DNA of 64,000 bases from Vreelandella nigrificans (GTDB lineage Bacteria; Pseudomonadota; Gammaproteobacteria; Pseudomonadales; Halomonadaceae): contig NZ_NWUX01000021.1 in assembly GCF_002374315.1 (NCBI RefSeq), positions 1 through 64,000 on the forward strand, given 5' to 3'. Every line of letters starts with the position of its first letter. Within the stretch, counting starts at the first letter, position 1. Both the position numbers and the translations under genes were made by a program. Below, one piece after another: positions 32,323 to 63,250 of the stretch. The notes beneath the pieces were generated by a model, which ran no database searches, was not told where the DNA came from, and saw nothing but the letters and a program-made list of their open reading frames with translations.

Positions 32323-32335
32323 GTGAGCCGATGCA

Positions 32336-44310: not shown

Positions 44311-44402
44311 CTATGTGTTCATAGCTGAGTGTTTAGGTCTGATACTTTGGTTTAACTTCTAATGGTTCCGCTTGCGCCTTGGGGTCATGCTAATTATCTT
44401 CA

Positions 44403-44424
44403 TTGTTGTATGATGTATTACATA
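44403..44424 (+). promoter_or_regulatory. Operator-like site 1, tct-gudD operon
   Basis: Contains TATGATGTATTACATA, 204 bases before the TctC start. It shares the ATGTATTAC core with sites at 49021, 54302 and 63229. The centre ATGTATTACAT is a perfect palindrome. Confidence 0.6.
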
Positions 44425-44482
44425 AGATATTGGCGGGTCGCATAAACAATATACCTCCCAGCAGATAATGCCCGCACGCTCT

Positions 44483-44521
44483 TAACTATGTCGACTAACT
44501 ATGCCAACTAGCTATGCCAAC
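44483..44521 (+). repeat. Three 13-bp tandem repeats
   Basis: TAACTATGTCGAC, TAACTATGCCAAC and TAGCTATGCCAAC follow each other directly, about 110 bases before the TctC start, in the untranslated leader. Confidence 0.85.
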
Positions 44522-44627
44522 TCAAGATGAGTGCCAAAAGCTCGCCGAGCTAATTGAAAACATCAAATAAAAAAATACCGCGATCAAACGGTTGACGCAC
44601 TAACGCCACAACCATAGAGGTGAAACA

Positions 44628-45575
44628 ATGAAAAAGATAATGACGACACTCTCTGTTGCTACTGCTGCTCTGACGCTCTCTACTTTAGCAGTGGCTGATT
44701 ATCCCACTAAAAATATTGAATTTATCGTGCCGTGGAATGCAGGTGGCGGTGCCGATAATGTGGTGAGAGCATTACAAAATCCTGTTGAGAAGGCGCTTGG
44801 GACTAATCTTGTCGTTCGTAACATCTCAGGCGGCGGTGGTGCTGTAGGATTCTCTACTGCGGTGGGTGCAAAGACAGATGGTTACGTCGTCACTATTCCT
44901 ACCAATGCCACTTTTACACTTGAGGGACTGGGGAACGTTGGCTTTACCTATACCGACTTTGAGTATATTGCCCGAGTGTTAGTTGAGCCCTACGTGTTAG
45001 CCGCTAGCAGCCAGAAAGGCTGGGAGTCGCTGGAGGAAATGCTCAATGACCTGCAAGAGAATGATCGCCCCTTAATGGTAGGTGCATCTGGCGTTGGCTC
45101 TTCAACACACATCATGGCCGTTGCACTGGCCGAAGAGCTGGGTGTCCGTTTTGAAGTGGTTCCCTACGACAGCGGTGCTAACGCGGTAACGGCAGCGATG
45201 GGTGGCCATATTGATGCGGTAGTTCTGAACCCTTCAGAAGTGGTTTCTGGCATTGATTCTGGACGCCTCACCGCTATTGTCACTACCGGTGATGAGCGTA
45301 GTGGCGCGCTTCCTGATGCGCCTACCATGTTGGAACAAGGCTATGACTTCTCCGTTAGTCAGTGGCGTGGTGTGGCTGCTCCTAAGGGCATTAGTCAAGA
45401 AGTTGAAGACCGCTGGGTGGAAGCTATTCAAGCCGCCGTTGAAGACCCTGAGTTCCAACGTGCAGCAGAGATGATGGGTTCCGACATCATGCCACTTTAT
45501 GGCGACGAGCTTGATGAATTTGTGGAAAACACGGCTCGATTAATGATTGAAGAAGCTGCAAAACTGGCTCAGTGA
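44628..45575 (+). CDS. tctC: Tripartite tricarboxylate transporter solute-binding protein (TctC/Bug family)
   Basis: Periplasmic binding protein of 315 residues with a Sec signal peptide (cleavage after LAVA, residue 23). The mature start YPTKNIEFIVPWNAGGGAD, the GASGVGSSTHI block and LPDAPTMLEQGYD are typical of the Bug/TctC family. These proteins bind carboxylates; the neighbouring glucarate dehydratase suggests a hexarate or uronate ligand, which is inference. GAGG precedes the ATG. First gene of the operon tctC-tctB-tctA-gudD. Confidence 0.93.
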   Translation: MKKIMTTLSVATAALTLSTLAVADYPTKNIEFIVPWNAGGGADNVVRALQNPVEKALGTNLVVRNISGGGGAVGFSTAVGAKTDGYVVTIPTNATFTLEGLGNVGFTYTDFEYIARVLVEPYVLAASSQKGWESLEEMLNDLQENDRPLMVGASGVGSSTHIMAVALAEELGVRFEVVPYDSGANAVTAAMGGHIDAVVLNPSEVVSGIDSGRLTAIVTTGDERSGALPDAPTMLEQGYDFSVSQWRGVAAPKGISQEVEDRWVEAIQAAVEDPEFQRAAEMMGSDIMPLYGDELDEFVENTARLMIEEAAKLAQ

Positions 45576-45582
45576 GGAAGTT

Positions 45583-46092
45583 ATGCAACGGCCTATTCCA
45601 GAAGCAACGTTTCATATTGTGCTTATAGGTCTTGTGGGTTACTTCCTAATGGAGAGTTTTTCTATTCGAGGAAGTGCAGCTGGCGGCAACCTGTCGCCGG
45701 CCTTTTTCCCCAAGGCGATCTGTGCACTTTTAATCATTTTACTTTTGCTATCGCTTGTCAGGGTCGTCATTGAAGGAATATCCAACAAGGAGCTTGAGCA
45801 GCCACGCGAAGTCAGTTTCGGCATATCCGTCATTGCCTGGTTGGTCGTACTTGCGCTCTTGATACTTTATGCCTTTTTACTAGAGCCACTTGGCTACATA
45901 TTAACAACAGCATTGTTGATTTTCTGCATGGTTTCAACGTTGGTGTTACTTAATAAACAAGATCAAAAAGCGTCTTTAAAAGGTGCAATAGGGCTTGCTG
46001 GTTTTTCAATATTGACCTCATTAGCCATCTTCATACTTTTTAGTAAAGGCTTCAGCATTATTTTGCCCACCCTGGGAATAGCCGGAGTTTAA
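45583..46092 (+). CDS. tctB: Tripartite tricarboxylate transporter small membrane subunit (TctB)
   Basis: Inner-membrane protein of 169 residues with four predicted helices. ATG 45583, with GAGGAAG just ahead and 7 bases after the tctC stop, is preferred to the frame opening inside tctC at 45547. The GGNLSPAFFPKAI loop and YILTTALLIFCM helix are typical of TctB. It forms the membrane part with TctA. Confidence 0.9.
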   Translation: MQRPIPEATFHIVLIGLVGYFLMESFSIRGSAAGGNLSPAFFPKAICALLIILLLLSLVRVVIEGISNKELEQPREVSFGISVIAWLVVLALLILYAFLLEPLGYILTTALLIFCMVSTLVLLNKQDQKASLKGAIGLAGFSILTSLAIFILFSKGFSIILPTLGIAGV

Positions 46093-46094
46093 TC

Positions 46095-47582
46095 ATGAAT
46101 GATTATATCGATGCACTAGGGCTTGTTTTCCAGGGATACGTACTGTTAGCGATAGCCGGCGGAACGCTGCTTGGGCTTATTATGGGGGCGCTGCCAGGCT
46201 TGACCGCTGCCATGGCAATAGCGCTACTGCTTCCATTAACCTTTGGAATGCCGCCTGTCATGGGTGTTGGCATGCTGCTTGGCACGTTGTGTGGGGCTAT
46301 TGCCGGTGGTTCCGTATCAGCCACTTTATTGAATATTCCAGGCACTCCCTCTTCGGTAGCGACCACGCTTGATGCTTTTCCTATGGCCCGTAGTGGTCAG
46401 GCGGGGCGAGCCCTGGGAATTGCCATTGTCGCCTCTTTTCTAGGCGGAATTTTTAGTGCGGTAGTGTTAAGTGTACTGGCACCTCCCATTGCCGAGTTTG
46501 CTCTGCGTTTCGGAGCACCTGAATACTTTGCACTTAGTGTTTTTGGCCTGGTTATCATTGCATCTGTTTCCAAAAACTTAGCCAAGGGGCTTGCGGCTGG
46601 GCTGATAGGTTTGCTGTTAGCAACGGTTGGGTCTGACCCGATGTTAGGAAGCCCTCGGTTTACCTATGGCAACATGTCGCTTTTAACCGGCATTAATCTC
46701 TTACCTGCGCTTATTGGTTTGTTTGCCGTGTCACAAGTGTTGGCCGATGTCGTTGACTATTTCAAAACTGAGAAAGCTGATGCATCAAACACGCCTATCG
46801 ATAAAGCGTCGCCTCGTTGGATCGAGGTGCTCAAACATTGGAAGGTCGTCCTCTCTAGTTCCGTGATTGGTACGATCGTGGGTGCCATCCCAGGTGCTGG
46901 CGGCAGTATTGCCTCTTTCTTGTCCTACGATCAGGCCAAAAAGATGTCAAAAACACCTGAAAAATTTGGTAAAGGGCATTCTGAAGGCATTATCGCTTCC
47001 GAGTCTTCTAATAACTCATTAGTTGGTGGATCGCTGATACCCATGCTGACGCTTGGGGTTCCCGGTGAAGCGGCAACTGCTGTTCTAATGGGCGGTTTAA
47101 TGATTCAGGGCATACGTCCGGGACCAACACTTTTTACTGAGCAAGGCGCCATTATTTACGGCATCTTTATTGCTTTCTTTGTGGCGAATATCTTCATGAT
47201 GCTCTTCCAGTGGTTTGGCATCAGGCTGTTTATAAAGATACTGCAGATACCAAGGAAGCTACTGATGGCGATGATTTTGGTCTTCTGTGTCATCGGTGTT
47301 TACGCCGTCGACTCCAACATTTTTAACGTTTATCTGATGCTGGCCTTCGGTGTTCTTGGATTTTTCTTGAATAAGTATGGCTTTGGCACTGCCCCCGTTA
47401 TTCTGGGCTTAATTCTTGGACCCATTGCAGAGTCAAACTTACGCCGAGCTTTGATGGTTTCAGGCGGGGACTGGACCGTCTTTGTTACTCGTCCTATCAG
47501 TTTATCGTTCCTGGTGGTCGCCCTGCTATTTCTAGCGTTTAGCCTTTGGCAAAACGCTAAACATAAAACGTCATTTGCTTAG
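46095..47582 (+). CDS. tctA: Tripartite tricarboxylate transporter large membrane subunit (TctA)
   Basis: Inner-membrane carrier of 495 residues with about 11-12 helices. Family hallmarks are [42 protein letters not shown], and the repeat [20 protein letters not shown] with [17 protein letters not shown]. It starts 2 bases after tctB. Couples uptake to the ion gradient; ligand as proposed for TctC. Confidence 0.95.
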
Positions 47583-47593
47583 GATTAATCATT

Positions 47594-48919
47594 ATGTTTC
47601 CTAAAATTAAATCAATGAAAGTGGTTCCTGTCGCTGGCTACGATGGCTTCTTGTTAAACCTCAGCGGTGGCCATGCGCCCTGGTTTATTCGCTGTGTGGT
47701 CATTCTTGAAGATGACGCTGGTAACCAGGGTGTTGGTGAGATTCCTTCCAGTGGCGGAATTCTTAAAGGGCTGGAGCAGTGCCGTGGGATGGTAGAAGGC
47801 TCGCAGATCAATAATATCAAGCACACGCTTAATAAGGTGCGCCTGCGGCTAGCGCAAAATGGACGTGAAGAGCGTGGCCGCCAGACATTTGACTTACGCG
47901 TAGCGGTGCATGTGATCACGGGCATTGAATCGGCTTTGTTAGACCTTTATGGGCAGGCACTACAAATGCCCGTGGCCGACCTGCTTGGTCAGTATGGCCG
48001 TCAGCGTGATGAAGTCGAGGCATTGGGCTATCTGTTTTTATTAGGTGATCCAGGCAAGACAGATCTGCCGTATCCTAACGCGCTTAATCCTCAAGATACC
48101 TGGGATGAAATACGCTACCAAGAGGCACTGACACCTGAAGCGGTGGCTAATTTGGCCAAAGCCGCCTATGAGCGTTACGGGTTTAAAGACTTTAAATTAA
48201 AAGGGGGTGTGCTGCGCGGTGAAGAGGAGGCAGATTGCATTCGCGCGCTCCATGAAGCATTTCCAGAGGCTCGATTAACGCTTGATCCTAATGGTGCCTG
48301 GAAACTTGATGAAGCAGTGGGGGTGTTGGAGCCCATCAAACACCTGTTGAGCTATGCCGAAGATCCCTGTGGCCAGGAAGAGGGCTACTCTGGGCGTGAG
48401 ACCATGGCTGAGTTTAAGAAGCGCACTGGCCTGCCCACGGCGACCAATATGATTGCAACAGATTTTAAGCAGCTACAGTATGCCGTTCAGCTTAACTCCG
48501 TTGATATACCTCTAGCCGATTGTCATTTTTGGACCATGCAAGGCGCTGTAAAAGTAGGTGAACTTTGTAACGAGTGGGGCATGACCTGGGGTTCTCACAG
48601 TAATAACCATTTCGATATTTCTTTGGCGATGATGACTCACGTTGCCGCTGCTTGCCCTGGAGAGATTACCGCAATTGACACGCACTGGATTTGGCAAGAT
48701 GGTCAACGTATCACCAAAAATCCCTTACTCATTCGCGATGGTAAGCTAAAGGTTCCAACCACCCCTGGGCTGGGGATTGAGCTTGATGAAGATAAACTGA
48801 TGGAGGCACATCAGCTTTATAAGACGCTCGACACCACCCAAAGAAATGATGCTATGGCGATGCAGTTTCTTATTCCTGGATGGCAATTTGATCCCAAACG
48901 ACCTGCTTTGGTCCGTTGA
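47594..48919 (+). CDS. gudD: D-glucarate dehydratase
   Basis: Enolase-superfamily enzyme converting D-glucarate (and L-idarate) to 5-dehydro-4-deoxy-D-glucarate. At 441 residues it matches E. coli GudD (446). The KxK base is in FKLKGGV, the metal ligands in LDPNGAW and EDPCG, and the catalytic His in [24 protein letters not shown] and [10 protein letters not shown] are also family-specific. Last gene of the tct operon, 11 bases after tctA. Its product is the substrate of KdgD encoded at 49118. Confidence 0.95.
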
Positions 48920-48960
48920 TCCTTAAACAGTCATCTTTTTGCAAGCCTGTAGGTTACTGC

Positions 48961-49042
48961 TACTTTGGTTTAAAACGCGATAGTTCTGCTTGCGTCGCGG
49001 CAAGCCTATACATATCTTCATAAACATATGATGTATTACATA
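48961..49042 (+). promoter_or_regulatory. Promoter region of kdgD-TRAP operon, paralogous to 44343-44424
   Basis: This 82-base stretch aligns without gaps to 44343-44424, about two thirds of bases identical by eye, with exact matches at the start (TACTTTGGTTTA), the middle (GCTTGCG, ATCTTCAT) and the end (ATATGATGTATTACATA, less the first base). The operator-like site 2 is 49021-49042, 75 bases before the kdgD start. Confidence 0.65.
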
Positions 49043-49117
49043 GCTTGTTTTCCATTCGGTCATCACTCGCTCCAGTTCATCGAATAGAAGACGCAATGAT
49101 AAAAAAGAGGGCATAAC

Positions 49118-50035
49118 GTGACATTTTCAAGAGAAGCAGTAACCAATGCCATTGGCGATGGTTTGCTATCGTTCCCGATCACGGATTTCGATAGCCAAGG
49201 CCGCTTTGATGAAGCGAGCTATCGTAAGCGGCTGGAGTGGTTTATCAGCCATGAAATCTCAGCGGTCTTCGTCGCGGGCGGTACTGGGGAGTTTTTCAGC
49301 CTGTCGCTGGATGAGTATCGCGAGATTGTGCGCATAGCGGTTGAGGTGATTGATGGGCGTTTGCCGGTGATCGCCAGCGCTGGCCTAAGCGTTGAGACAG
49401 GTAAGGCTTTTGCAAAAGCAGCTGAAGAGGCGGGGGCTGATGGCATTCTGCTGATGCCGCCTTATTTAACCGAGTGCCCGCAAGGCGGTTTGGTCGAGTA
49501 CGCTCGCCAAATTTGCGATGCCACCTCAATCAATGTGATTTATTACAACCGCGGCAATGGCATTTTGAATGCCCACTCTGTTCAGCAACTGGCCGGTCTT
49601 TGCCCTAATTTGGTGGGGTTAAAAGATGGTAAAGGTGATATTCAAGCGCTTAACAAAATTATCAAAACCGTTGGTGATCGCTTGGTTTATATCGGTGGTG
49701 TACCTACGGCTGAAATTTTTGCTGAGGCTTACGTCTCTATTGGTGTGAATACTTATTCATCGGCTGTTTTTAACTTCGTACCTGAAATGGCCGTCACCTT
49801 TTACAAGGAGTTGCGTAAAGGTAATAAAGAGCTCGTGAAACAGATTACTAACGACTTCTTTATTCCTTTCGTGGATCTCAGGGATCGAAAAGCAGGCTAT
49901 GCCGTTAGCCTGATCAAAGCGGGCGCGGAGATTGTTGGCCGTCCTGCCGGTCACGTCCGTGCTCCACTGGAAATGCCAAGTGAAAAGGAGAGCCTGCAGT
50001 TGGCAGCGTTGATCGACGTGGCAAAAAAATACTGA
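49118..50035 (+). CDS. kdgD: 5-dehydro-4-deoxyglucarate dehydratase
   Basis: DHDPS-superfamily lyase that decarboxylates and dehydrates 5-dehydro-4-deoxy-D-glucarate to 2,5-dioxopentanoate. GTG 49118 with GAGGG six bases ahead gives 305 residues, the usual length. Seen: LLSFPITDFDSQGRFD, AGGTGEFFSLS, VIYYNRGNG with the Tyr of the family, and the Schiff-base Lys in GLKDGKGDIQ. It joins the GudD and Gci branches of the pathway. First gene of an operon with a TRAP transporter and gci; the next enzyme, 2,5-dioxopentanoate dehydrogenase, is not in the window. Confidence 0.95.
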   Translation: MTFSREAVTNAIGDGLLSFPITDFDSQGRFDEASYRKRLEWFISHEISAVFVAGGTGEFFSLSLDEYREIVRIAVEVIDGRLPVIASAGLSVETGKAFAKAAEEAGADGILLMPPYLTECPQGGLVEYARQICDATSINVIYYNRGNGILNAHSVQQLAGLCPNLVGLKDGKGDIQALNKIIKTVGDRLVYIGGVPTAEIFAEAYVSIGVNTYSSAVFNFVPEMAVTFYKELRKGNKELVKQITNDFFIPFVDLRDRKAGYAVSLIKAGAEIVGRPAGHVRAPLEMPSEKESLQLAALIDVAKKY

Positions 50036-50097
50036 CTAATAACATACCCATTAACATCTGCTAGTAAACGATCACTAATAATAAGAGAGCGTTAAAC

Positions 50098-51108
50098 ATG
50101 CATGCTAATAATAGCGTTATGAAAACTAGCCACATTAAGAAATTCTTACCTATCGCCAGTGTGGCGGCCATGATGGCCTTTGCGCTTCCGGCTCAGGCGG
50201 ATAACTGGCGAGGATGGAACATCCACCCAAATGGCTATCCCAATACAGTGGCGCTGGAAGAGTTCGCTGAGGCCGTGGCAGAGCAAACGGAAGGCCGTGT
50301 TAAGCCCCGCGTTTATAACAATGCTGTACTTGGCGACCAATCGGACGCCATTGAGCAGACCCGCAACGGGGCCTTGGACTTTGCCAATTTCAATATGGGT
50401 CCGATGGGCCCCATCGTTCCTGAAACCAATGTGTTCTCGCTGCCTTTTTTGTTCAATGACGTTGAACATATGCACGCGGTGATGGACGGAGAAATTGGCG
50501 AACGCTTTGCTGATGCATTAGAAGAAAAAGGGCTTGTCGTTCTATCGTGGTTTGATTCGGGGGCGAGAAGTATTTACAACACTAAGCAGCCTATTAATAC
50601 CCCTGAAGATGTTCGTGGCTTAAAGATCCGTGTTATGAACAACGATCTTTATGTTCACATGATTGAGGCGCTAGGTGGAAACGCTACGCCAATGTCCTAC
50701 GGGGAGGTCTATCAAAGTTTAACTACCGGTGTTTTAGACGGTGCAGAAAATAACTACCCGTCTTTTGAATCAAGTAATCACTATGAAGCATCAGGATATT
50801 ACTCCTTAACCGAACATTTGATTATTCCTGAGTGTTTGTGTGTTGCAAAAGCCAGCTGGGAAAAACTCTCGGAAGAAGATCAAGAGATCATTCGAGATGT
50901 AGCGCAGCAGGCGTCTGTGCGTCAGCGTGAGCTATGGGTGAATAGTTCTGAAGAGAGCCGGCAGATAGTGTTAGATCATGGTGTTGAAATCAATGAAGTG
51001 GAAGATAAAGCTGCCTTCCAGGCGCTTATGGAACCCATGTATGAAAGCTTCATTGCCAGTAACCCGGGCACAGGCGAGCTGATTGAGGAAATTCGCGCCG
51101 CCGAGTGA
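50098..51108 (+). CDS. dctP: TRAP transporter solute-binding protein (DctP family)
   Basis: Periplasmic binding protein of 336 residues with a signal peptide ending LPAQA (residue 34). Family blocks include VYNNAVLGDQSDAIEQTRNGALDF, LPFLFNDVEHM, the carboxylate-binding region FDSGARSIYNTKQPINTPEDVRGLKIRV, and SYGEVYQSLTTGVLDGAENN. DctP proteins use a conserved Arg to bind organic acids. Clustering with kdgD and gci suggests a uronate ligand. An internal ATG at 50119 is an alternative start. Confidence 0.94.
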   Translation: MHANNSVMKTSHIKKFLPIASVAAMMAFALPAQADNWRGWNIHPNGYPNTVALEEFAEAVAEQTEGRVKPRVYNNAVLGDQSDAIEQTRNGALDFANFNMGPMGPIVPETNVFSLPFLFNDVEHMHAVMDGEIGERFADALEEKGLVVLSWFDSGARSIYNTKQPINTPEDVRGLKIRVMNNDLYVHMIEALGGNATPMSYGEVYQSLTTGVLDGAENNYPSFESSNHYEASGYYSLTEHLIIPECLCVAKASWEKLSEEDQEIIRDVAQQASVRQRELWVNSSEESRQIVLDHGVEINEVEDKAAFQALMEPMYESFIASNPGTGELIEEIRAAE

Positions 51109-51194
51109 TTTTACACTTAAATGCTTCCGGTGGTTGCTAATACATCGCTTTGTCGCTGCTTAGCCACTACCGGAAGTTGAAAAGGAAAGGTTCC

Positions 51195-51731
51195 GTGAGT
51201 ATCGAACTTGAATCATCACTCGGTAAAGAAGACACGATAAATAGCAGCCCACTAAATCGAATCTTAGATGGCATTGCTAGCTTATGTATTTTGGTTGCAG
51301 GTGTCTTGCTAGTCATACTTATCGCCATATTTGGATGGCTGGTTTTTGGTCGCTATGTGCTGAATAACACGCCGACCTGGGTTGAACAGGCCTCACTGGT
51401 GATGGTGGTTTATATCACCTGTTTAGGTGCCGCGGCTGGGGTAAGGCATCATAGCCACCTCAATATTGATTTTATTCGTGAAAGCTTGACTGCTCCTTTA
51501 CGTAGCTTAATGCACCATCTTGCTGATCTTTTTATCTTCTTTTTTGGCGGATTTATGGCCTTTCAGGGTTGGACATTGGTGATGACAAACCTGAATAGAG
51601 CGATTCCCATGATAGGGCTCTCAGAGAGCTGGCGTGCGGCCCCTCTAGTGGTATGCGGTGTGTTAATCATGCTTTTTTCAGCCGCTGATATAGCGCAGCG
51701 CTTACTAACTCGAAAAGTTAAGAGGGTATGA
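51195..51731 (+). CDS. dctQ: TRAP transporter small membrane subunit (DctQ family)
   Basis: Inner-membrane protein of 178 residues with four helices. I chose GTG 51195, preceded by AGGAAAGG, because the longer open frame from 51150 only adds a basic stretch read from the leader. The family segments GRYVLNNTPTWVEQASLVMVVYITCLGAA and RHHSHLNIDF are present. It starts 86 bases after dctP, more than usual, and ends 3 bases before dctM. Confidence 0.9.
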   Translation: MSIELESSLGKEDTINSSPLNRILDGIASLCILVAGVLLVILIAIFGWLVFGRYVLNNTPTWVEQASLVMVVYITCLGAAAGVRHHSHLNIDFIRESLTAPLRSLMHHLADLFIFFFGGFMAFQGWTLVMTNLNRAIPMIGLSESWRAAPLVVCGVLIMLFSAADIAQRLLTRKVKRV

Positions 51732-51734
51732 TCG

Positions 51735-53015: not shown

Positions 53016-53069
53016 TACCGAAGGCTACTAAAGCAGCTTTTATAAAGCTGTTAAGAGGATAGATCGAAT

Positions 53070-54206: not shown

Positions 54207-54301
54207 GGGATTGACGCAGCTTTTTGATAGTTCTCAATAGCTATGAATAAAACGCAGAGCAGGAAATAGAAATACGATGACAGTAGTAAGAATGATAAAC
54301 C

Positions 54302-54323
54302 CAAACATATTATGTATTACTAG
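54302..54323 (+). promoter_or_regulatory. Operator-like site 3, Dpp-type operon
   Basis: AAACATATTATGTATTAC (54303-54320) matches site 2 at 49022-49039 in 17 of 18 positions. It is 180 bases before the binding-protein start. Confidence 0.6.
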
Positions 54324-54503
54324 TGTGCTTCTCTACTCATTTCAAACGACCAGATTGTGAGATGGGCAAGCTCTTGCGGGGAGCTCCTGTAAAGAGCCCT
54401 TGTGTAGCGCTCTTGTGAGGCGTTCTCGTGCATATGGATTGATGGGGAATTTAAAAAATGACTTCGATTATAAATATAAATTGCTAACACATTGGAGTAT
54501 GGC

Positions 54504-56099
54504 ATGAACATTTGTACAAAGTGCTTAATAGGCGTAATGCTACTGATCATGACAACAGTGGTGCACTCAAATACGCCCAGTGATCAGCTTATTATTGCGC
54601 TTAAGATGAATAATATTTTGTCACTGGATCCGGCGGCATCAACGGGTAATGATATTGCATTCATCAACGCAAATCTTTATGACACGTTGATAGAACTGGA
54701 TCCAGAAGACCCGACCATTATCCTGCCCGCCCTTGCAAGAGACTGGGAGGTGGCTGACGATAATATGTCAATCTCTTTTAGTCTTCGTGAAGACGTCAGT
54801 TTTCATTCAGGAAATCAGCTTACGGCTGAAGATGTTGTTTGGACATTCGAGCGCGTACTAGATCTTAATCTGGCATTGGCAACCACTTGGAAAGCACTAG
54901 GGTTTACCAAGGAGAATATTTCAAACCTCATATCGGAGACAGGCACACATGAAGTAGAAATAAAATTTCCACGCGAGCTTGATCCCAAGCTGGTTATATA
55001 CACTCTTGCTACCAGCCCCAGCGCTTTCATCATAGATAAACAGCTGGTATTAGAGCATGAGCAAGATGGGGATCTAGGGCATCAATGGTTGACGACCAAC
55101 TCAGCTGGTAGTGGTGCTTTCAGCTTAGAGCAGTGGATACCTCAAGATAGAATAATCATGGTTAAAAACGCCCAATACTGGGGCGAAACTCCCAGTTTAG
55201 AGCGTATTGCTATGCGTAATCTAAAAGAGTCACAGACGATGCGGCTGATGATTGAGCGTGGCGATATCGACGTAGCCATCGGTATGTCTGTGCCAGACAT
55301 CCGGTCTTTAGAGGGGGCAGAGGGGGTTGATATTCAAACCACTCAACGAGGCACGCTTTACTACGTTGCCGTTAGTATGCAAAACGATATTCTGGCCAAT
55401 AAAGATGTCCGTAGAGCCATTAGAGGAACTATCAATTACGAGGGTATCAACGACAGTATCATGCCTTACTACGGCGTGTTTCATCAGCGCCCTGTAAAGC
55501 TTGGGTTACCCGCTACTCTACCCGAGCCTATGTACTCACTATCCACTGATGAAGCCCGAAAGCTGCTGGCAAATGCGGGTTATGAAAATGGTTTCACTAC
55601 AACCATAAGAGCGCTTAACGAGTCGCCATTTATCAACGTAGCTATCAATCTTCAAAGTAGCTTGGAAAGAATAGGCATCAACGCAGAAATTATCAGTGGG
55701 ACCGGCAACCAGGTATACGGAGCAATGAGAGATCGTCGCTTTGATATCATTGTAGGTCGGGGAGGGGGCGGTTTTGCACCTCACCCTGACTCTAATCTTA
55801 CACCACTCTTATTTAATCCGGATAACTCGGACTCTGCCAAGCTTACCAACTTTCAAGGATGGCGAACTGGCTATCATAATGAGCGTATCAATGAGTTGAT
55901 CATGCAAGCTGTTTCAGAAGCGGATAGTGAGCTGCAAAATAGTTTATATGCCGAGGTTCAGTCTATTTATGATGAGGATGTCGGTGCACTGTTTCCTTTC
56001 TCGCAAATGGTCAATACGGTCGCTGTCAGACAAGAAGTGGAGGGGTACTTGGATGATCCAGCCGCGATGACTCGTTTGAGGTCAGTAACCAAACACTAA
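54504..56099 (+). CDS. ABC transporter substrate-binding protein, peptide/nickel/opine class (DppA-like)
   Basis: Periplasmic binding protein of 531 residues (family SBP_bac_5). ATG 54504 with GGAG eight bases ahead gives a clean signal peptide (CLIGVMLLIMTTVVHSN). Family blocks: LSLDPAASTGNDIAFINANLYDTLIEL, LREDVSFHSGNQLTAEDVVWTFERV, DLGHQWLTTNSAGSGAFSLEQW, and DVRRAIRGTINYEGI. The class binds peptides but also oligosaccharides and other solutes. The shared operator site and flanking pectin genes suggest oligogalacturonides; that is inference. First gene of a five-gene importer operon. Confidence 0.93.
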   Translation: MNICTKCLIGVMLLIMTTVVHSNTPSDQLIIALKMNNILSLDPAASTGNDIAFINANLYDTLIELDPEDPTIILPALARDWEVADDNMSISFSLREDVSFHSGNQLTAEDVVWTFERVLDLNLALATTWKALGFTKENISNLISETGTHEVEIKFPRELDPKLVIYTLATSPSAFIIDKQLVLEHEQDGDLGHQWLTTNSAGSGAFSLEQWIPQDRIIMVKNAQYWGETPSLERIAMRNLKESQTMRLMIERGDIDVAIGMSVPDIRSLEGAEGVDIQTTQRGTLYYVAVSMQNDILANKDVRRAIRGTINYEGINDSIMPYYGVFHQRPVKLGLPATLPEPMYSLSTDEARKLLANAGYENGFTTTIRALNESPFINVAINLQSSLERIGINAEIISGTGNQVYGAMRDRRFDIIVGRGGGGFAPHPDSNLTPLLFNPDNSDSAKLTNFQGWRTGYHNERINELIMQAVSEADSELQNSLYAEVQSIYDEDVGALFPFSQMVNTVAVRQEVEGYLDDPAAMTRLRSVTKH

Positions 56100-56142
56100 A
56101 ATAAGCTTGTTAGTGGATGCATTAATAAAGGAGGAAATAATA

Positions 56143-57159
56143 ATGATAAGATCACGTGTTTCAAGAGTAACAAAAAAGACAGGCGTAATATTGATAACCC
56201 TGTTCGGGCTTTTAACAATGACCTTTGTCATTGGTAGATTAATGCCCATTGATCCGGTTTTAGCCGTTATAGGTCCCGATGCTGATTCGTCTACCTATCA
56301 GCAGGTTTTTGATGAGATGGGGTTGGGGAAGCCTATATGGGTTCAATATTACTATTATTTACAGGATATGCTGTCGGGCGATTTTGGGCGTGCCATTCTT
56401 ACGGGTAGTCCGGTCATTGATGACATTCTACGTGTATTACCAGCCACTATAGAACTTGCTTCAATTGCGATTATGGTGGGTGTTGGTCTGGGCGTTCCAT
56501 TAGGCGTGTATGCCGCTACTCATCGTGGCCGCCTGGGGGACCACCTGACGCGGTTGATAACTCTATTTGGTTATTCAACACCGGTGTTCTGGGTGGGCAT
56601 GGTCGGCTTGATTATCTTCTATGCATGGCTTAACTGGGCCGGTGCAGCAGGCCGTATCGGTTTTGCCTATGATGGCATGTTTACAAGCTATACCGGCTTT
56701 TACTTGGTGGATACGTTACTATCGGGAAATATTGAAGCCTTCGTTAGTGCGCTACGCCATATTGCCCTACCTGCACTTATTCTTGGTTTGAATTCAGTCT
56801 CCTTTATTGGTCGGATGACGCGCAGTTTTATGTTAGAACAACTCTCTCAGGAGTATATAAAAACCGCACGGGTCAAAGGTCTTTCTGAACGAAGTGTAAT
56901 CTGGAAGCATGCATTTAAAAATATCCGTGTTCAGTTGCTTACTATTGTAGCATTAGCTTATGGCGGATTGCTTGAAGGTGCTGTTCTTATTGAAACGGTT
57001 TTTGCCTGGCCGGGCTTCGGGCAGTATCTAACAGATAGTTTATTAATGGGTGATATGAACGCTGTGATGGCATCCGTTCTTTTTATCGGCCTTGTGTTTG
57101 TATTCCTGAATTTACTATCAGATGCCCTGTATAAAATGTTCGATCCGAGGACTCAATAA
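56143..57159 (+). CDS. ABC transporter permease (DppB-like)
   Basis: Inner-membrane permease of 338 residues with six helices. ATG 56143 has a textbook AAAGGAGG nine bases before it; the frame is open from 56107. Blocks: FGLLTMTFVIGRLMPIDPV, the EAA-type loop QEYIKTARVKGLSERSVIWKHAFKN, and AWPGFGQYLTDSLLMGD. Its last base overlaps the ATG of the second permease. Confidence 0.94.
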   Translation: MIRSRVSRVTKKTGVILITLFGLLTMTFVIGRLMPIDPVLAVIGPDADSSTYQQVFDEMGLGKPIWVQYYYYLQDMLSGDFGRAILTGSPVIDDILRVLPATIELASIAIMVGVGLGVPLGVYAATHRGRLGDHLTRLITLFGYSTPVFWVGMVGLIIFYAWLNWAGAAGRIGFAYDGMFTSYTGFYLVDTLLSGNIEAFVSALRHIALPALILGLNSVSFIGRMTRSFMLEQLSQEYIKTARVKGLSERSVIWKHAFKNIRVQLLTIVALAYGGLLEGAVLIETVFAWPGFGQYLTDSLLMGDMNAVMASVLFIGLVFVFLNLLSDALYKMFDPRTQ

Positions 57160-58067
57160 TGAAAAATGCCGAAGTAGTGAGGAACTCTGATTATTCATTG
57201 AAAGCTCGTCATAATCCTGAATATACCCGAGTGGCTCTTTTTGTTAAGTCCTTTAAAAAGCTCTGTAGAAACCCCTTGAGTGCTTCAGGCGTCATCATAG
57301 TCGCCTTATTACTGATATGTGCAATTGCTGCACCTCTCATCGCTACTCACAATCCGCTTGAGCAGGATTTGGCCCGCGTCCTGGCATCGCCCTCTCTTGC
57401 CCACTGGTTTGGTACGGATGAGTATGGTCGAGATGTTTTTAGCCGGCTGGTGTATGGCTCGCGTGTCACGCTGTATATCATCTTTTTGGTTACCATCATT
57501 GTAGGACCTGTTGGCCTTTTGGTAGGCACCATGTCTGGCTATTTTGGTGGCTGGGTGGACAGCGTTTTTATGCGCATAACGGATATCTTTATCTCCTTTC
57601 CCAGCCTTGTGCTGGCTCTGGCTTTCGTGGCAGCGCTTGGGCCTGGCCTGGAGCATGCGGTTATCGCAATCGCAATCACCTCTTGGCCTCCTGTGGCACG
57701 CCTTGCTCGAGCGGAGACGCTTACCTTGAGAAATTCAGACTATGTGGTGGCTGCACAGCTGCAGGGCGCTTCCGCATGCCGCGTACTGTTTCACTACATT
57801 TCATTAATGTGCCTGCCTTCATTGATTGTTCGCTTAACCATGAATATGGCAACGGTCATATTGACCGCCGCGGCGTTGGGATTTTTAGGCTTGGGTGCCC
57901 AGCCTCCGCTTCCTGAATGGGGGGCCATGATATCGACAGGTCGTAGCTACATGCTTGAAAGCTGGTGGTTGGTAGCATTTCCGGGAGCGGCCATCATGCT
58001 TGTAAGCCTAGCGTTTAATTTATTAGGCGACGGTCTTCGTGACCTTCTAGATCCCCGAACCGAGTGA
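57159..58067 (+). CDS. ABC transporter permease (DppC-like)
   Basis: Second permease, 302 residues, six helices. Typical blocks: NPLSASGVIIVALLLICAIAAPLIATHNP, LASPSLAHWFGTDEYGRDVFSRLVYG, the loop NSDYVVAAQLQGASACRVLFHY and GLGAQPPLPEWGAMIS. It starts in the TAATG overlap with the first permease. Confidence 0.94.
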   Translation: MKNAEVVRNSDYSLKARHNPEYTRVALFVKSFKKLCRNPLSASGVIIVALLLICAIAAPLIATHNPLEQDLARVLASPSLAHWFGTDEYGRDVFSRLVYGSRVTLYIIFLVTIIVGPVGLLVGTMSGYFGGWVDSVFMRITDIFISFPSLVLALAFVAALGPGLEHAVIAIAITSWPPVARLARAETLTLRNSDYVVAAQLQGASACRVLFHYISLMCLPSLIVRLTMNMATVILTAAALGFLGLGAQPPLPEWGAMISTGRSYMLESWWLVAFPGAAIMLVSLAFNLLGDGLRDLLDPRTE

Positions 58068-58076
58068 GGAATAAAC

Positions 58077-58922
58077 ATGGATGTATTAACAGTTGAAAAA
58101 CTGAACGTTACTTTCCGTACCGATGAGGGGCTAAAGCATGCGGTTCGTGATGTGTCTTTTACACTGAGAAACGAGAAGCTTGCGATAGTGGGGGAGTCGG
58201 GCTCGGGCAAGTCGACAGTGGGAAAGGCGATACTGAGGTTGAACCCACCCTCTACGCGTGTGACGGCTGAAAAGCTTCAGTTTGGGAAAACCAATCTTCT
58301 TGCCTGCAATGAAAAAGAGATACGTGCCATACGTGGGCAGCATATTTCGATGATCATGCAGGATCCCAAGTTTTCGCTTAACCCAGTGATGACAGTAGGG
58401 GAGCAAATATCTGAAGCGCTCAGTGTTCATCGAAATATTAGCAGACGAGAAGCCAAAGAAGCAGCGCTTGAGATGTTGAAGGAAGTCAGTATTGCTGACC
58501 CCGAGCACGTATATAGCCAGTACCCCCATGAAATATCAGGAGGGATGGGACAACGTGTAATGATTGCCATGATGGTTATACCCGAGCCCGACATCATTAT
58601 TGCTGATGAGCCAACATCTGCACTTGATGTTTCGGTCCAGCAGGATGTACTCAATATATTAACCAGGCTGATAGAGAAGAAGAATATTAGCCTTATATTT
58701 ATCAGTCACGACCTCAACCTGGTGAAGAAGTTCTGTGACCGTGTGTTGGTCATGTATGGCGGAAGAGTCGTGGAGTCGATCAAGGCGAATGAGCTCTCCA
58801 ACGCGTCGCACCCTTATACAAGAGGTCTGATGGAGTCGCTTCCAAGCCTTAAGCATCGCCGGGAGACCTTACCGGTAATGACGCGCGACCAGAATTGGCT
58901 TACCCAGGAATACACAACATGA
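58077..58922 (+). CDS. ABC transporter ATPase (DppD-like)
   Basis: ATPase of 281 residues. Walker [13 protein letters not shown]-loop [12 protein letters not shown], signature ISGGMGQRV, Walker [13 protein letters not shown] and switch His ISHDLNLV. The C-terminal oligopeptide-transporter extension is short compared with the roughly 330 residues usual for DppD. GAGGAA precedes the ATG. It overlaps the next gene by four bases (ATGA). Confidence 0.94.
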
Positions 58923-59662
58923 TCTCTATTCAATCACTTTCGTTTGATATGCCTGGCTCTACTAAATCCAAGCGTATCCTGAATGATATAAACATCAGTA
59001 TTGGCAAAGGGGAGTGTTTTGGGCTGGTAGGTGAATCAGGTTCTGGGAAAACGAGTATTCTCAAATGCTTGGCAGGCCAGTTTCAGGGCTGGGAAGGGGC
59101 GATCGCCATTCAGGGGAAATCGCTTGCCGAGACTTCCTTGAAAGAGCGCAGCAATACCATGCAAATGGTGTTTCAAGATCCCTACGGTGCCTTACACCCG
59201 CGGCATACCATTCGTAAAATACTGAATGAGCCCTTGGCCATCAAAGGTTTGTCTGATAAGTCAGAGCGCATACTCAAAGCACTCAAGGATGTGGGGCTTG
59301 ATGAGACGTTTCTACCTCGTTATCCACATCAGCTTTCAGGAGGGCAAAGGCAGCGAGTGGCCATTGCCAGAGCGATAATACTAGATCCGGATATTATCCT
59401 TCTCGATGAGCCTACATCAGCACTTGATGTGTCTGTGCAGGCAGAAATACTGAACCTGTTAACTAGCCTTCACCGACGCCACCAACTGACTTATCTGATG
59501 GTATCCCATGATCTTGGCGTCATTGCGCATCTTTGCGAGCGTGTTGCTGTGATGAAGTCCGGTGAGATCGTGGAGGTGGTATCCAGAGATGATCTAGTCG
59601 AGGGAAATGTAGCACACGCTTATACGAAAGTGCTTCTACAGCATGCTTTAAGCCGAGAGTAA
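58919..59662 (+). CDS. ABC transporter ATPase (DppF-like)
   Basis: Second ATPase, 247 residues. Walker A GESGSGKTSIL, Q-loop QDPYGALHPRHT, signature LSGGQRQRV, Walker [13 protein letters not shown], switch His VSHDLGVI. It ends soon after the ATPase core, so it too lacks the long C-terminal extension. ATG 58919 overlaps the stop of the upstream ATPase gene. Last gene of the operon. Confidence 0.94.
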   Translation: MISIQSLSFDMPGSTKSKRILNDINISIGKGECFGLVGESGSGKTSILKCLAGQFQGWEGAIAIQGKSLAETSLKERSNTMQMVFQDPYGALHPRHTIRKILNEPLAIKGLSDKSERILKALKDVGLDETFLPRYPHQLSGGQRQRVAIARAIILDPDIILLDEPTSALDVSVQAEILNLLTSLHRRHQLTYLMVSHDLGVIAHLCERVAVMKSGEIVEVVSRDDLVEGNVAHAYTKVLLQHALSRE

Positions 59663-59676
59663 GTGCTCGATTAAAC

Positions 59677-59711
59677 AACCGATAAAGGCGGGAACTCCGG
59701 CTTTATCGGTT
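59677..59711. terminator. Hairpin between the convergent Dpp-type operon and esterase gene
   Basis: Perfect 11-bp stem AACCGATAAAG/CTTTATCGGTT with 13-base loop, 14 bases after the ATPase stop. The T-run is weak on both sides. Probably a bidirectional terminator. Confidence 0.6.
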
Positions 59712-59752
59712 GGTGGGAAAGCATATTTGGCCTTTTACACTTGTGAAGAGAT

Positions 59753-59765
59753 GGGGGGGGGGGGG
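59753..59765. repeat. Homopolymer of 13 G
   Basis: Thirteen consecutive G in non-coding DNA between convergent genes. Such a tract is prone to slippage in cells and to length error in sequencing. Confidence 0.9.
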
Positions 59766-59810
59766 CGAAAAGATGGAGCGTGCGCGGTGAAAGAGGGCTG
59801 TTCGTGATGT

Positions 59811-60785
59811 TTACTCTGACATAACACCGATCTGAACCATCCAATCCGCGAGCAGTAGTGGCCAGCCCGAAACCGGTTTGCCGCTAGCGCCGCTAATGCC
59901 AAAGCCATGGCCGCCGTCGCGGAAGATATGCAGTTCAGTCTTCACGCCCGCGGCATGTAGTGCATTATAAAATGCAATTGCATTGGCTGGGGGCACGGAT
60001 GGGTCATCATCGGCTAGCACCAGGAACACTTCGGGTGTACCTGCCGTGACGTGCTCTTCAGGGGAGTGATTGCTCTTTTGTTGTGGCGTTGGGCTGTCGC
60101 CCAATAGGGCGGTGCGTGATCCTTCGTGAACGCTGTTATCCTGCATTGTTACGACTGGATAAACCAGGGCGACGAAATCAGGCCGAGCTGAGACGGCCTG
60201 TTCAGTGCCATCTGCTTCATAAAGCTCCCTGTTATACCCAGTAGCGAGCGATGCTCCTATATGTCCTGCGGCAGAAAAACCCAGAAACCCGATCCGTTCA
60301 GGATCAAGGCCCCATTCGTTGGCATGTCTACGTACCAGACGCATGGCGCGCTGTGCATCGGCCAGCGGTGCATCCGCTCGGTTAGCATGCCCCTCTCCTG
60401 GTAAACGATAGGTCAGAAGAAAGCTGGTGACGCCTAACGGTGCCAGCGCCTTGGCGATTTCAATACCCTCTTTATCTAACACCACCCGCCTGTAGGATCC
60501 GCCTGGTGCGATAATAATGGAAGCCCCGTTGGGTCGCTCTGGAACCCAGGCCGTTAGGCTTGGTTCAACAATGCCCGTTAGTGCCCGATCAGGCCGGAAC
60601 AAGTTTTTGGAACGTTCATCCACCATGGGCGTTAGGTCAACTGGCGTGCCCTCAGGGCGTTTATCCCAAAGCGGCAGAACCGCTTCATGCTGTAAAGTGT
60701 TAGCCATGGCACTTCCCATACTCATTAAGCCGCATAAGGTTAACGCCAGCCATGCGGATGAAAGTAGTATTCGCTCTTTTTGCAT
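59811..60785 (-). CDS. Secreted alpha/beta hydrolase, acetylesterase-like
   Basis: Exported hydrolase of 324 residues with a signal peptide (to about residue 28, MGSAMAN). Seen: oxyanion region APGGSYRRVV, DAQRAMRLVRRHANEWGLDPERIG, nucleophile elbow FSAAGHIGAS (G-x-S-x-x-G), Asp in LADDDPSVPP and His in GGHGFG. This layout is that of acetylxylan-esterase-like / BD-FAE enzymes that remove acetyl groups from plant polysaccharides. Next to a pectate lyase it may deacetylate pectin in the periplasm or outside; substrate inferred. It is downstream of the pectate lyase gene with a terminator-like hairpin between them. Confidence 0.88.
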   Translation of the reverse strand: MQKERILLSSAWLALTLCGLMSMGSAMANTLQHEAVLPLWDKRPEGTPVDLTPMVDERSKNLFRPDRALTGIVEPSLTAWVPERPNGASIIIAPGGSYRRVVLDKEGIEIAKALAPLGVTSFLLTYRLPGEGHANRADAPLADAQRAMRLVRRHANEWGLDPERIGFLGFSAAGHIGASLATGYNRELYEADGTEQAVSARPDFVALVYPVVTMQDNSVHEGSRTALLGDSPTPQQKSNHSPEEHVTAGTPEVFLVLADDDPSVPPANAIAFYNALHAAGVKTELHIFRDGGHGFGISGASGKPVSGWPLLLADWMVQIGVMSE

Positions 60786-60828
60786 ATTTACTATTTACAG
60801 AAGATTTTATCTAATCACTTTTTAGAAA

Positions 60829-60862
60829 CGAGTGCCTAGCGCTTGGTAGCACTAAGCACTCG
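60829..60862 (-). terminator. Terminator-like hairpin after the pectate lyase gene
   Basis: On the minus strand a 15-bp stem (CGAGTGCTTAGTGCT with AGCGCTAGGCACTCG, two G-U) and ACCA loop, then TTTCT. It begins 13 bases after the lyase stop. The short T-run suggests partial read-through into the esterase gene. Confidence 0.6.
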
Positions 60863-60875
60863 ACACCGGTTTTGG

Positions 60876-63113
60876 TTAGTTGAAAACTAGCTGCTGCAGT
60901 GCCAATGCTTGCTCACGCTGTTCACTTTCGTTGTTGGCCTCCTGCTGTAACAAGGCTTCAATTTCCGCTAATTTGTCTTCATCGAACGGTAATTCATTAG
61001 ATGGTGTATGGCTTCCCCCTTGCAGGAACCAGTTTTGAGGGCTTATATCACCATAAACGCTGTCGTCGACACTACTTGGGATTACTAGCTTTAACGAAAT
61101 ATTGTGTGACAATTGAGCTGGCTCAAGTTGCTCGCCATAGGGGCTTTTGCGAACAATATAGTTAAATCGCTTATTATCGATGGCGACGTTATTGTTAATG
61201 ATTAACGTGCCGGAATTAAAGTTATCCGTAAATCCATCCATTCCATTATTGAAGGCAAGGTTGCCCTCAACAATATGGGGAACAGGTAGACCTTCTCCGC
61301 CTAACTTAAAGCCATTGCCCAGATTTCCACCGGTTGGCTGGGTGTTCAATGTCTGGCCATTGTTGAACGCGATGGAGTTGGTAATGGTGACAGTGCCGTT
61401 GGGGCCATCTTCGACTTTATTGAATAAATCCCAGCCATCATCGATATTGTGGTGTGCAATACAGTGATCAAAGGTGTTGCCTTCACCAACCCGCATTTTT
61501 GCAGCGAAACCGTCGGCATTAATGCCAGAGCTATCTTCATTGTTGTAGCTCTCGCTATAACGAACCGTGTTATGGCTCGCCCAAAGCGCTCTCCCGACGT
61601 CGGCGGGGGAGGTGATTTGAAAGCCCGTATCTGGTGCGCTGTGGGTCACAATATGTTCGAAGACATTGTGGCTGCCATGCACAATCAAACGTTCGCCGGC
61701 GACTTCCAGGTGATCCAATTGCCAGTAATTGGCATTGTGCGACACCATCCCGGTAAAGCGTACATCTTCGCCTTCGCCAGTTAAGCGCTTAAGTTTGCCA
61801 GGCGAGCCGCTAGCGGTTAGAGGGATTTCTATTGCTTCGTAGTCACCGCTGGCAAGATAAATCGTACCGCCAGGAGCTAGCTGCACCAAGGCGGACGCTA
61901 GGTCTAGAGGATTCGTTTGGTCGCCAGCTTGCCCTGGGCTGCCAGCAGGGGATACATGGATAGTAAAAGGATCAGCAACGGTTAGTGGCTCAAGCGTTAC
62001 TGTTTTGTGCTGGGACTCTGTTTCTGGCCCTTCGGTTGGCTGGAAAGAGACGACAAGATCAGTGGGTTCAGTGATCTGCAAAGGAAGGCTAAATAAGTCG
62101 CCTGCAGCAACGGTCTGTTTATCCCCAATCGGTTGCCCAGCCTTTGAGACGCTAAATTCACCGCTATAATTCGCGATCGCTTGAAGAGTGTAGTCAGGAG
62201 TAGTGACGACGTCGGGTGAAGCTAATGACCATACAAGAGGGTTTTCCGGTGCTTGATAAGCGCTCGCCTCCTGGGTGTTGGCGTCGCTAAGCTCAATGTG
62301 AATATCATCAATGTGCAGGCGAGCATTACGCGCTGCAAAAAATCCCACATACTGATGATCAGGATCTTGCACTTCAACAAGGTTGGCGGGAGCTTGGGCA
62401 AGCTCGTGGTGATAAGTTTGCTGGCCATCGTTCACGGTCACGGCGAAGTGCTCATCACTACGTGTCAGCGTCATACGGTAAGGCTGCTCGTCACCATACG
62501 GCCTACCTTCTAAGTAATCTTCATGACTTAACAGATTGCCGGGATTACCCCATGGATCCTGAATCCCTTCTCTATAGGTAGCTGTCACATTCATTAACCC
62601 ATCGTTATCGCGGGTATGTGAGCGCAGCAGGTTCATCACCATATTGGACGCAGCGGGAAACTCTTCATGGCCCAGCGGCTGAGGGTTAGCACGTGGTGCG
62701 CCTAAAATGTCGCGAACCATTAGCCCAGCACCTTCCTGGCGATTAGGCGTTGCGCCTGTTTCTGGCCCCAGTTGCTCTAACGTTAAAGTGGCCGTCAGGG
62801 TGAAGTTTACGCCGGTGGGTAAGGTGGTGTAGTAAAACGTACCCCCTTCATGGGAGTTAGCCAACTTACCGCCGCGGCTTTCAATCGTCACTTGATCTAC
62901 CAGTGGGCCTGCAGTCACAGGATCGCCATTACTGGTAACTTCGTTAGTTCCTACCTTTTCAGGAAGGATAGTGGATCCAAAATTCAAGTCGGCCGATTGG
63001 CCGAAGGTGATGCTTTGCCAAGCTAGCTCAGAAGCATCTGTAGCGGCGTGTCCTAACGAAGCACCCAAGACAGGCGTCATCGTCGTTAGTGCAAACGCAA
63101 TAATTTTACGCAT
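60876..63113 (-). CDS. Pectate lyase, polysaccharide lyase family 9-like, with N-terminal accessory domain
   Basis: Secreted lyase of 745 residues that would cleave polygalacturonate by beta-elimination with Ca2+. Signal peptide ends near residue 23 (LGHAA). Residues 30-275 form a beta-rich accessory region; 300-390 look like a linker domain. From about 395 a right-handed beta-helix follows, opening IHVSPAGSPGQAGDQTNPLD as in PL9 enzymes, with the Ca2+/catalytic signatures NADGFAAKMRVGEGNTF, HHNIDDGWDLFNK and GNGFKLGGEG, whose Lys corresponds to the catalytic base of Pel9A. Operator-like site 4 lies 116 bases upstream. Alternatives are other parallel beta-helix lyases; the DGFAAK/DDGWDLF pair favours PL9. 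Confidence 0.88.
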   Translation of the reverse strand: MRKIIAFALTTMTPVLGASLGHAATDASELAWQSITFGQSADLNFGSTILPEKVGTNEVTSNGDPVTAGPLVDQVTIESRGGKLANSHEGGTFYYTTLPTGVNFTLTATLTLEQLGPETGATPNRQEGAGLMVRDILGAPRANPQPLGHEEFPAASNMVMNLLRSHTRDNDGLMNVTATYREGIQDPWGNPGNLLSHEDYLEGRPYGDEQPYRMTLTRSDEHFAVTVNDGQQTYHHELAQAPANLVEVQDPDHQYVGFFAARNARLHIDDIHIELSDANTQEASAYQAPENPLVWSLASPDVVTTPDYTLQAIANYSGEFSVSKAGQPIGDKQTVAAGDLFSLPLQITEPTDLVVSFQPTEGPETESQHKTVTLEPLTVADPFTIHVSPAGSPGQAGDQTNPLDLASALVQLAPGGTIYLASGDYEAIEIPLTASGSPGKLKRLTGEGEDVRFTGMVSHNANYWQLDHLEVAGERLIVHGSHNVFEHIVTHSAPDTGFQITSPADVGRALWASHNTVRYSESYNNEDSSGINADGFAAKMRVGEGNTFDHCIAHHNIDDGWDLFNKVEDGPNGTVTITNSIAFNNGQTLNTQPTGGNLGNGFKLGGEGLPVPHIVEGNLAFNNGMDGFTDNFNSGTLIINNNVAIDNKRFNYIVRKSPYGEQLEPAQLSHNISLKLVIPSSVDDSVYGDISPQNWFLQGGSHTPSNELPFDEDKLAEIEALLQQEANNESEQREQALALQQLVFN

Positions 63114-63136
63114 GTTTATAAAGCCTTCTTGTCATA

Positions 63137-63167
63137 GTTATTGTCTTGGTTATTGTCTTGGTTATGG
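63137..63167 (-). repeat. 12-bp tandem repeat in the pectate lyase leader
   Basis: GTTATTGTCTTG occurs twice in tandem (63137-63148, 63149-63160) with part of a third copy, close to the start codon and likely in the 5' untranslated leader. Confidence 0.8.
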
Positions 63168-63228
63168 CCATAGCAAGAGCAGCGTATCTAGCTGGTGACT
63201 AGCCATCTACGCTGAGGTATCCCTGATA

Positions 63229-63250
63229 AAGATAATACATAGTATGTTTG
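63229..63250 (-). promoter_or_regulatory. Operator-like site 4, pectate lyase gene
   Basis: Minus-strand AAACATACTATGTATTAT (63249-63232) matches site 3 at 16 of 18 positions. It lies 116 bases before the lyase ATG, between it and the partial lactonase gene. Confidence 0.6.

Follow-up and report, generated by a model that had tools for sequence, protein, structure and literature searches.

Candidate operators of a probable GguR-group regulator in a pectin and hexuronate gene cluster of Vreelandella nigrificans

The right-hand part of the 64,000 nt stretch analysed here (positions 1–64,000 of contig NZ_NWUX01000021.1 of Vreelandella nigrificans, assembly GCF_002374315.1; hereafter the window) carries genes for pectin cleavage, import and hexuronate catabolism, and operator-like sites stand in front of them. 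The initial annotation had named four such sites, each before one transcription unit, and direct reading found all four in place: downstream lie, in this order, tctCBA-gudD, a unit of kdgD, a tripartite ATP-independent periplasmic (TRAP) transporter and a gci-like gene, an operon for a Dpp-type importer, and the gene for a Pel9-type lyase. Sites 2–4 have the arm AAACATA two bases 5′ of ATGTATTA, and in sites 1 and 2 ATGTATTACAT forms a palindrome with a single base at its centre.

The cluster continues to the right of the window, where two further sites and a regulator gene lie 0.6–7.6 kb beyond its edge. Site 5 is found between the gene for a PF10282 lactonase and that for a second racemase-type enzyme (racemase-2); beyond the latter come genes for a Na symporter and a KdgM-type porin. 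Site 6 was found with a matrix built from five sites and exceeds the next match, at 13.9, when reverse-strand readings of known sites are set aside. Downstream of it are genes for KdgD2, an amidohydrolase, a uronate-dehydrogenase-like short-chain dehydrogenase/reductase (SDR), a GntR/FCD regulator and an aldehyde dehydrogenase. Further matches had been suggested at a uronate dehydrogenase, a 2,5-dioxopentanoate dehydrogenase or an unassigned GntR/IclR/LacI gene, and the run behind site 6 holds a uronate-dehydrogenase-like, a GntR and an aldehyde dehydrogenase gene. The longest KdgD2 open reading frame (ORF) opens inside site 6, and we therefore assume that its start codon lies further down. 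Taken together, the six sites are very probably operators of one GguR-group GntR/FCD regulator encoded in the same cluster, and a single factor for cleavage, import and catabolism, as first proposed, is the best-supported reading of these putative operators.

Table 1. Features of the cluster. Positions are those of the window unless marked as contig; the contig ends at 82,418.
Feature	Position	Strand	Remarks
ACTU-like box	44340..44356	+	TGATACTTTGGTTTAAC; 63 nt upstream of operator 1; weak score 9.4
Operator 1	44403-44424	+	TTGTTGTATGATGTATTACATA, read directly; form B; before tctCBA-gudD
tctC, tctB, tctA, gudD	44628..48919	+	tctC PF03401; tctA PF01970
ACTU-like box	48958..48974	+	TGCTACTTTGGTTTAAA; 63 nt upstream of operator 2; weak score 8.7
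Operator 2	49021-49042	+	TAAACATATGATGTATTACATA; hybrid (left arm form A, remainder form B); before kdgD1-TRAP-gci
kdgD1, TRAP transporter P/Q/M, MR/MLE enzyme	49118..54206	+	kdgD1 TIGR03249; MR/MLE enzyme gci-like by context
Operator 3	54302-54323	+	CAAACATATTATGTATTACTAG; form A; before Dpp-type importer operon
Dpp/Opp-type ABC importer, five genes	54492..59662	+	binding protein, two permeases, two ATPases
Alpha/beta hydrolase	59811..60785	-	BD-FAE/Abhydrolase_3; downstream of lyase
Pel9-like right-handed beta-helix protein	60876..63113	-	probable pectate lyase
Operator 4	63229-63250	-	CAAACATACTATGTATTATCTT; form A; before Pel9-type lyase
PF10282 beta-propeller lactonase, C-terminal part	63411..63998	-	whole ORF contig 63411-64430
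Operator 5	contig 64587-64608		outside window; upstream of PF10282 lactonase
Operator 6	contig 68784		outside window; before kdgD2 gene run; score 18.1 (matrix from five sites)
GntR/FCD regulator gene	contig 71610-72335		PF00392 helix-turn-helix, PF07729 FCD; within same cluster

An 11-base core proved too unspecific to serve as the motif: ATGTATTAYAT has eight exact copies in the genome (control 1), three of them intergenic in this cluster and five within mechanical ORFs of other contigs. The 17-mer AAACATANNATGTATTA, by comparison, has four exact copies in all of the 4.93 Mb genome and every copy lies in this cluster, one of them at contig 64588 just beyond the window; site 1 is without the arm. 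No near-copy exists at one mismatch and three exist at two mismatches, while up to three mismatches give 65 matches against 68 for the control. Separately, on another contig (locus L010, G000:C38, 4933-7356) successive similar ORFs about 1 kb apart each contain ATGTATTACAT in their coding sequence.

Among ORFs of at least 100 aa between contig 44.6 and 76 kb, no transcription factor other than the GntR/FCD protein was found. Its gene begins 7.6 kb past the right window edge. Of the 20 FCD matches in the genome, no other belongs to its group at E ≤ 1e-40. In a tree, the regulator homologues, including GntR genes in GguR-like context, form one group (98/95) apart from the 19 own FCD paralogues, among which there are long branches. 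The recognition-helix region is near-constant across the homologues ([GDS]VSRT[VA][IV]REA). The protein falls well under the NCBIfam cut-offs for ExuR (100.6 of 396 bits) and UxuR (90.5 of 442 bits), and it is not an IclR protein. In the available part of the GguR report, the GntR-family regulator GguR is reported to control the TctABC/aldarate operon in two Halomonas, and in one of the two also Udh-Gli-Gci-UxuPQM (PMC5507952); the cluster described here and the kdgD-tctCBA-gudD-gntR-aldDH loci of relatives fit that description. Judged by its gene context, the regulator is most likely GguR. A plasmid search for a Burkholderiaceae GguR gave two distant matches (38%) only. In one relative, two GguR-group regulators lie about 19 kb apart (L070, G142:C7, 2685, and G142:C7:806430), each with a udh-like gene; they are 58–59% and 80% identical to the V. 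nigrificans regulator.

We then compared 151 genomes of the family, counting as regulator homologues those with E ≤ 1e-40 (39–100% identity). The 15-mer TGTATGATGTATKAC, the form seen at core genes, has 115 sites in 73 of the 151 genomes (control 1), and 88 of these sites lie within 35 kb of a regulator homologue gene. It was found in 72 of the 96 genomes with a homologue and in 1 of the 55 without (both, regulator only, motif only and neither: 72/24/1/54; Fisher 1e-20, not corrected for kinship). The 17-mer AAACATANNATGTATTA has seven sites in three genomes (control 0). Ten named loci carry the regulator at 72–93% identity, and nine of them have sites scoring at least 22; the tenth (L064) reaches 11.1 at best within its 20 kb, and in the matching genome (G150) two sites lie at distances of about 16 and 25 kb.

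A matrix from the six own sites matched 53 of 199 upstream regions in 46 relative loci (L065, L068, L069 and L071 were excluded as duplicates), compared with a mean of 1.57 and a maximum of 7 for column-permuted matrices. Matches were found upstream of kdgD2 (12/13), kdgD1 (9/13), racemase-2 (7/7), lactonase (6/6), pel9 (4/4), dppA (1/1), tctC (5/9), gntR (4/33), trapP (3/11), kdgM (1/6) and udh (1/6); six of the 53 matched regions are lactonase upstreams that share intergenic sites with racemase-2. There were none upstream of gudD (0/22), tctA (0/20), aldDH (0/9), ldh2 (0/9) and sss (0/7). The motif is therefore neither scattered at random in the genome nor absent before orthologues, the two outcomes that had been named as refutation: the 17-mer is confined to the cluster and the sites are conserved upstream in relatives.

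The sites stand in a recurrent position relative to predicted sigma-70 promoters, which were scored with a rough frequency matrix. After removal of sequences more than 70% identical, 48 of 58 promoters remained. In 19 of these the predicted -10 ends between -8 and +2 of the operator start, compared with 3.5 for shuffled upstreams, and in all five pel9 promoters the operator lies over the 17-bp spacer and the -10. The V. nigrificans lyase promoter (TTGATG-N17-TATCTT) is covered by operator 4 in this way. At operator 2 the predicted TTGCGT-N17-TATCTT ends 2 nt 5′ of the operator, and at operator 1 a TTGCGC-N17-TATCTT seen by eye does the same, although it is not the top pair of the script; at the own tctC, racemase-2, dppA and kdgD2 the top pair is not one that ends at the operator. 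In an alignment of racemase-2 upstreams from eight genomes, the longest invariant run (15 columns) falls in the operator, and a TTG(C/T)TG-N17-TANNAT promoter read by eye abuts its 5′ side. Such a geometry on the core promoter suits a repressor and suggests that the predicted promoters may be repressed.

Upstream of the operators, a word search returned a GAC-N4-GTC element, with the best 10-mer in 21 of the 48 promoters (shuffled best 11–14). The pattern GACYWWNGTC, allowing one mismatch, is present in 25 of the 48 (shuffled mean 2.2, maximum 7), a count that is partly circular as the pattern was picked after these promoters had been viewed; 20 of the 29 matches sit 43–45 or 60 nt upstream of the operator. 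Sequences of the same kind are given for the ACTU motif of CrbR in Table 4 of PMC5715377, in the available part of that source, where most rows are not verified but predicted sites (q-values up to 0.93). We built a matrix from 20 of the 23 rows (two duplicates and one row of 16 letters were dropped); its letters come from the paper, and the comparison itself was chosen after the element had been seen. At a score of at least 8 it matches 23 of the 48 promoters, where shuffled sequences give a mean of 1.1 (maximum 5) and column-permuted matrices one of 1.5 (maximum 8). The matched promoters are 22 of 33 on the core side and 1 of 15 on the pectin side. In 17 of the 48 the match starts 46–49 or 62–65 nt upstream of the operator, and the other six lie elsewhere.

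In V. nigrificans the box is present, weakly, at two of the six promoters (Table 1). There are 20 matches of at least 8.5 in 82 kb, so these two boxes rest on their position, which is one favoured in relatives, and not on their score. There is no such box at the own dpp, pel9 and kdgD2, and at racemase-2 there is GACTATTGTC at 43 nt with an ACTU score below 8. Two ACTU matches precede the own acs ORF, one of 13.3 at about 50 bp and one of 14.5 at about 125 bp, where another ORF ends. Next to acs lie genes for a PAS hybrid kinase and a LuxR-type response regulator, the arrangement expected for CrbS/R; the kinase has 1313 aa and no SSF match, and 11 hydrophobic segments fall within residues 1–520.

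We rejected the idea that the upstream element is private to this regulon, as GACCAWNGTCNANNTTGY has 29 matches in 26 of the 151 genomes (control 9), of which 12 have a TGTATGATGTATKAC site no more than 60 bp away. Thirteen of the other 17 matches were inspected (12 stretches): eight are intergenic and five lie in ORFs, with mixed neighbours. ACTU-like GACCA(A/T)NGTC boxes were also seen before other genes (L133 2658 and 10624, L137 6802, L138 5805, L140 6715), namely those for an enoyl-CoA hydratase and a GH1 glucosidase and some without an assignment, hinting at a possible wider CrbR-type regulon in the Halomonadaceae.

The operator occurs in two forms, and these bear on the strongest alternative, namely that GguR acts on form B at the tctC, kdgD and udh-side operons while a different protein acts on form A at the pectin-side genes. 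Form B, TTGTATGATGTAT(G/T)ACA, is common at kdgD and tctC across the family; form A, AAACATANTATGTATTAY, found at pectin-side genes, has an extra conserved AAAC, and the AAACATA arm belongs mainly to it. All 18 counted pectin-side sites have form A (one gene assumed), compared with 4 of 42 elsewhere, three of which are gntR-upstream sites sorted by a single column. Sites without an assigned downstream gene were left out of these counts, except one in L063 that was counted as pel9 by assumption, its lyase gene lying past the end of the locus; 11 own or G117/L063 sites were added by hand. Moreover, the ACATA-N-TATGT arm of form A is itself an inverted repeat, and the form A pattern AACATANTATGTATKAY is restricted to 5 of the 151 genomes. 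On the other hand, the own kdgD1 site is a hybrid where the orthologous promoter in G117 has form B, and sites of intermediate form exist (L061, L104). TGTAT followed by an A two bases on is kept in all 19 + 31 distinct sequences, partly by construction as these were selected by the matrix. No further regulator gene was found in the module, and all four genomes that have both racemase-2 and form A carry the regulator at 72% identity or more. We therefore read forms A and B as probably one operator family, on the strength of the kdgD1 comparison, and consider a second regulator unlikely. The fifth genome with AACATANTATGTATKAY (G094) has its match beside a reverse-transcriptase-like ORF (L108, 450-1919), which was judged a chance match; the translation of this ORF reads as having a TIR-like C-terminus.

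It is very improbable that a KdgR-like IclR regulator (contig C21:14109-14939) controls the pectin genes. The genome does contain such a gene, beside KduI-family, SDR, TRAP-like and GH88 genes, but the best match in the four scanned upstream stretches of that cluster is 5.8, compared with 25.8–33.1 for the own sites, and the sole match above 13 in those 20 kb (14.7) falls inside the GH88 ORF. It was rejected as the regulator for this lack of sites; the separate cluster (L126, G000:C21, 12379-18986) apparently encodes another route for unsaturated uronates, under a regulator of its own. A KduI locus on C84 was likewise dropped as a regulon member, its best upstream match of 14.3 being judged background. 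Still less credible is that the sites are conserved core-promoter sequence or chance AT-rich matches. They do overlap or abut predicted -10 regions; yet the 115 sites against one in the control, their linkage to one regulator gene and the low yield of column-permuted matrices largely refute this. Several points weigh against the single GguR-group regulator that we favour. Site 1, when left out of its own matrix, scores 11.2, which places it 11th in the 82-kb contig, where the other four come 4th, 5th, 5th and 2nd; it is the weakest member on own-genome evidence, though the family-wide form B backs it. In addition, 24 of the 96 regulator-bearing genomes are without the exact TGTATGATGTATKAC, the genomes are related so that the counts are not independent, the mean promoter score is barely above that of shuffled sequences (8.15 vs 7.28), and the consistent difference in the left arm of forms A and B would allow a second regulator for form A.

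From this pattern we infer binding, repression, an inducer and a CrbR-type input as follows. The GguR-group regulator would sit next to the -10 at kdgD, tctC and racemase-2, would cover both spacer and -10 of the lyase promoter, and would repress until a hexuronate or an aldarate pathway intermediate releases it. The lyase, the importers, uronate dehydrogenase, lactone-handling enzymes, GudD, KdgD and aldehyde dehydrogenase would then come on together. As its gene is among those behind site 6, the regulator would also control itself. In relatives, inverted-repeat variants such as GTATGATGTCATAC are found near the regulator gene (L092 6614, L093 10481, L105 10462), a possible autoregulatory site with another half-site arrangement. 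Many core-side promoters of relatives have a CrbR-type activator box immediately 5′ of the -35, and the own tctC and kdgD1 have a weak one; such a box might add carbon state as a second input. We give about even chances to the wider view that aldarate and hexuronate promoters of the Halomonadaceae often have dual input (a CrbR-type activator for carbon state, a GguR-group repressor for substrate), and that in the pectin lineage a re-shaped operator, form A, brought the lyase and the oligomer importer into the regulon, for the most part with no CrbR box.

Some family assignments in the window are less direct. The tctB gene was named by position and has no family match, and gudD matches TIGR03247 at 692 bits, under the model cut-off of 829 (glucarate dehydratase-like). 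The initial annotation had found no regulator gene in the window; this holds for GntR, IclR and LacI genes among the scanned ORFs, but not for sigma factors, as three extracytoplasmic function (ECF) sigma/FecR pairs are present (20743-22315, 26260-27789 and 31738-33349). These lie within a siderophore region with a hydroxylase, an acetyltransferase, FecCD, FhuF and binding proteins. At 38852-39325 a 157-aa FAD oxidoreductase remnant matches DAO-type models at both ends, leaving their central part unmatched, and looks like an internally shortened gene.

Pectin and hexuronate use in enterobacteria is controlled by KdgR (IclR) and by ExuR/UxuR, as they would be by the regulator here, which is unlike these in family (not IclR) and in its scores, far under the ExuR and UxuR cut-offs. 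For pectin use in a halophile, our results name a testable regulator and six candidate operators. They also suggest that altering one operator arm could extend a monomer-level regulon to polymer attack, and that an acetate-type two-component system may also feed sugar-diacid promoters. In a limited literature search, no paper joined pectate lyase, Halomonas, galacturonate and a regulator, bar one Enterobacter genome paper, and none linked CrbR with glucarate or galacturonate.

The GguR regulon of Halomonas and other proteobacteria has reportedly been described by Bouvier et al. in J Bacteriol. By analogy with the available part of that system's description, the regulon here is of a known kind: both have a GntR-family regulator, TctABC with galactarate/glucarate enzymes, Udh, a lactone isomerase, Gci and a TRAP hexuronate importer (PMC5507952). 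What is extra here are the Pel9-type lyase, the Dpp-type importer and the unit of the second racemase-like enzyme and Na symporter behind such sites, with the KdgM-type porin between, as well as form A; some of the genes may already appear in the main GguR paper. In the CrbS/CrbR (MxtR/ErdR) acetate two-component system, the experimentally identified targets given in the available part of the source are acs, actP and two further genes; the same class of imperfect inverted repeat, ACTU, is shared, but here the box precedes aldarate/hexuronate promoters (PMC5715377). As far as the accessible part of that report goes, the uxuL operon of Ralstonia solanacearum, with garD and the polygalacturonase gene pehC, is a precedent for pectin cleavage encoded with aldarate/lactone genes, although with another enzyme class and in another organism (PMC6580516). 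Apparently new, then, are the reach to pectin-side genes through a distinct operator form and the pairing with a CrbR-type ACTU box.

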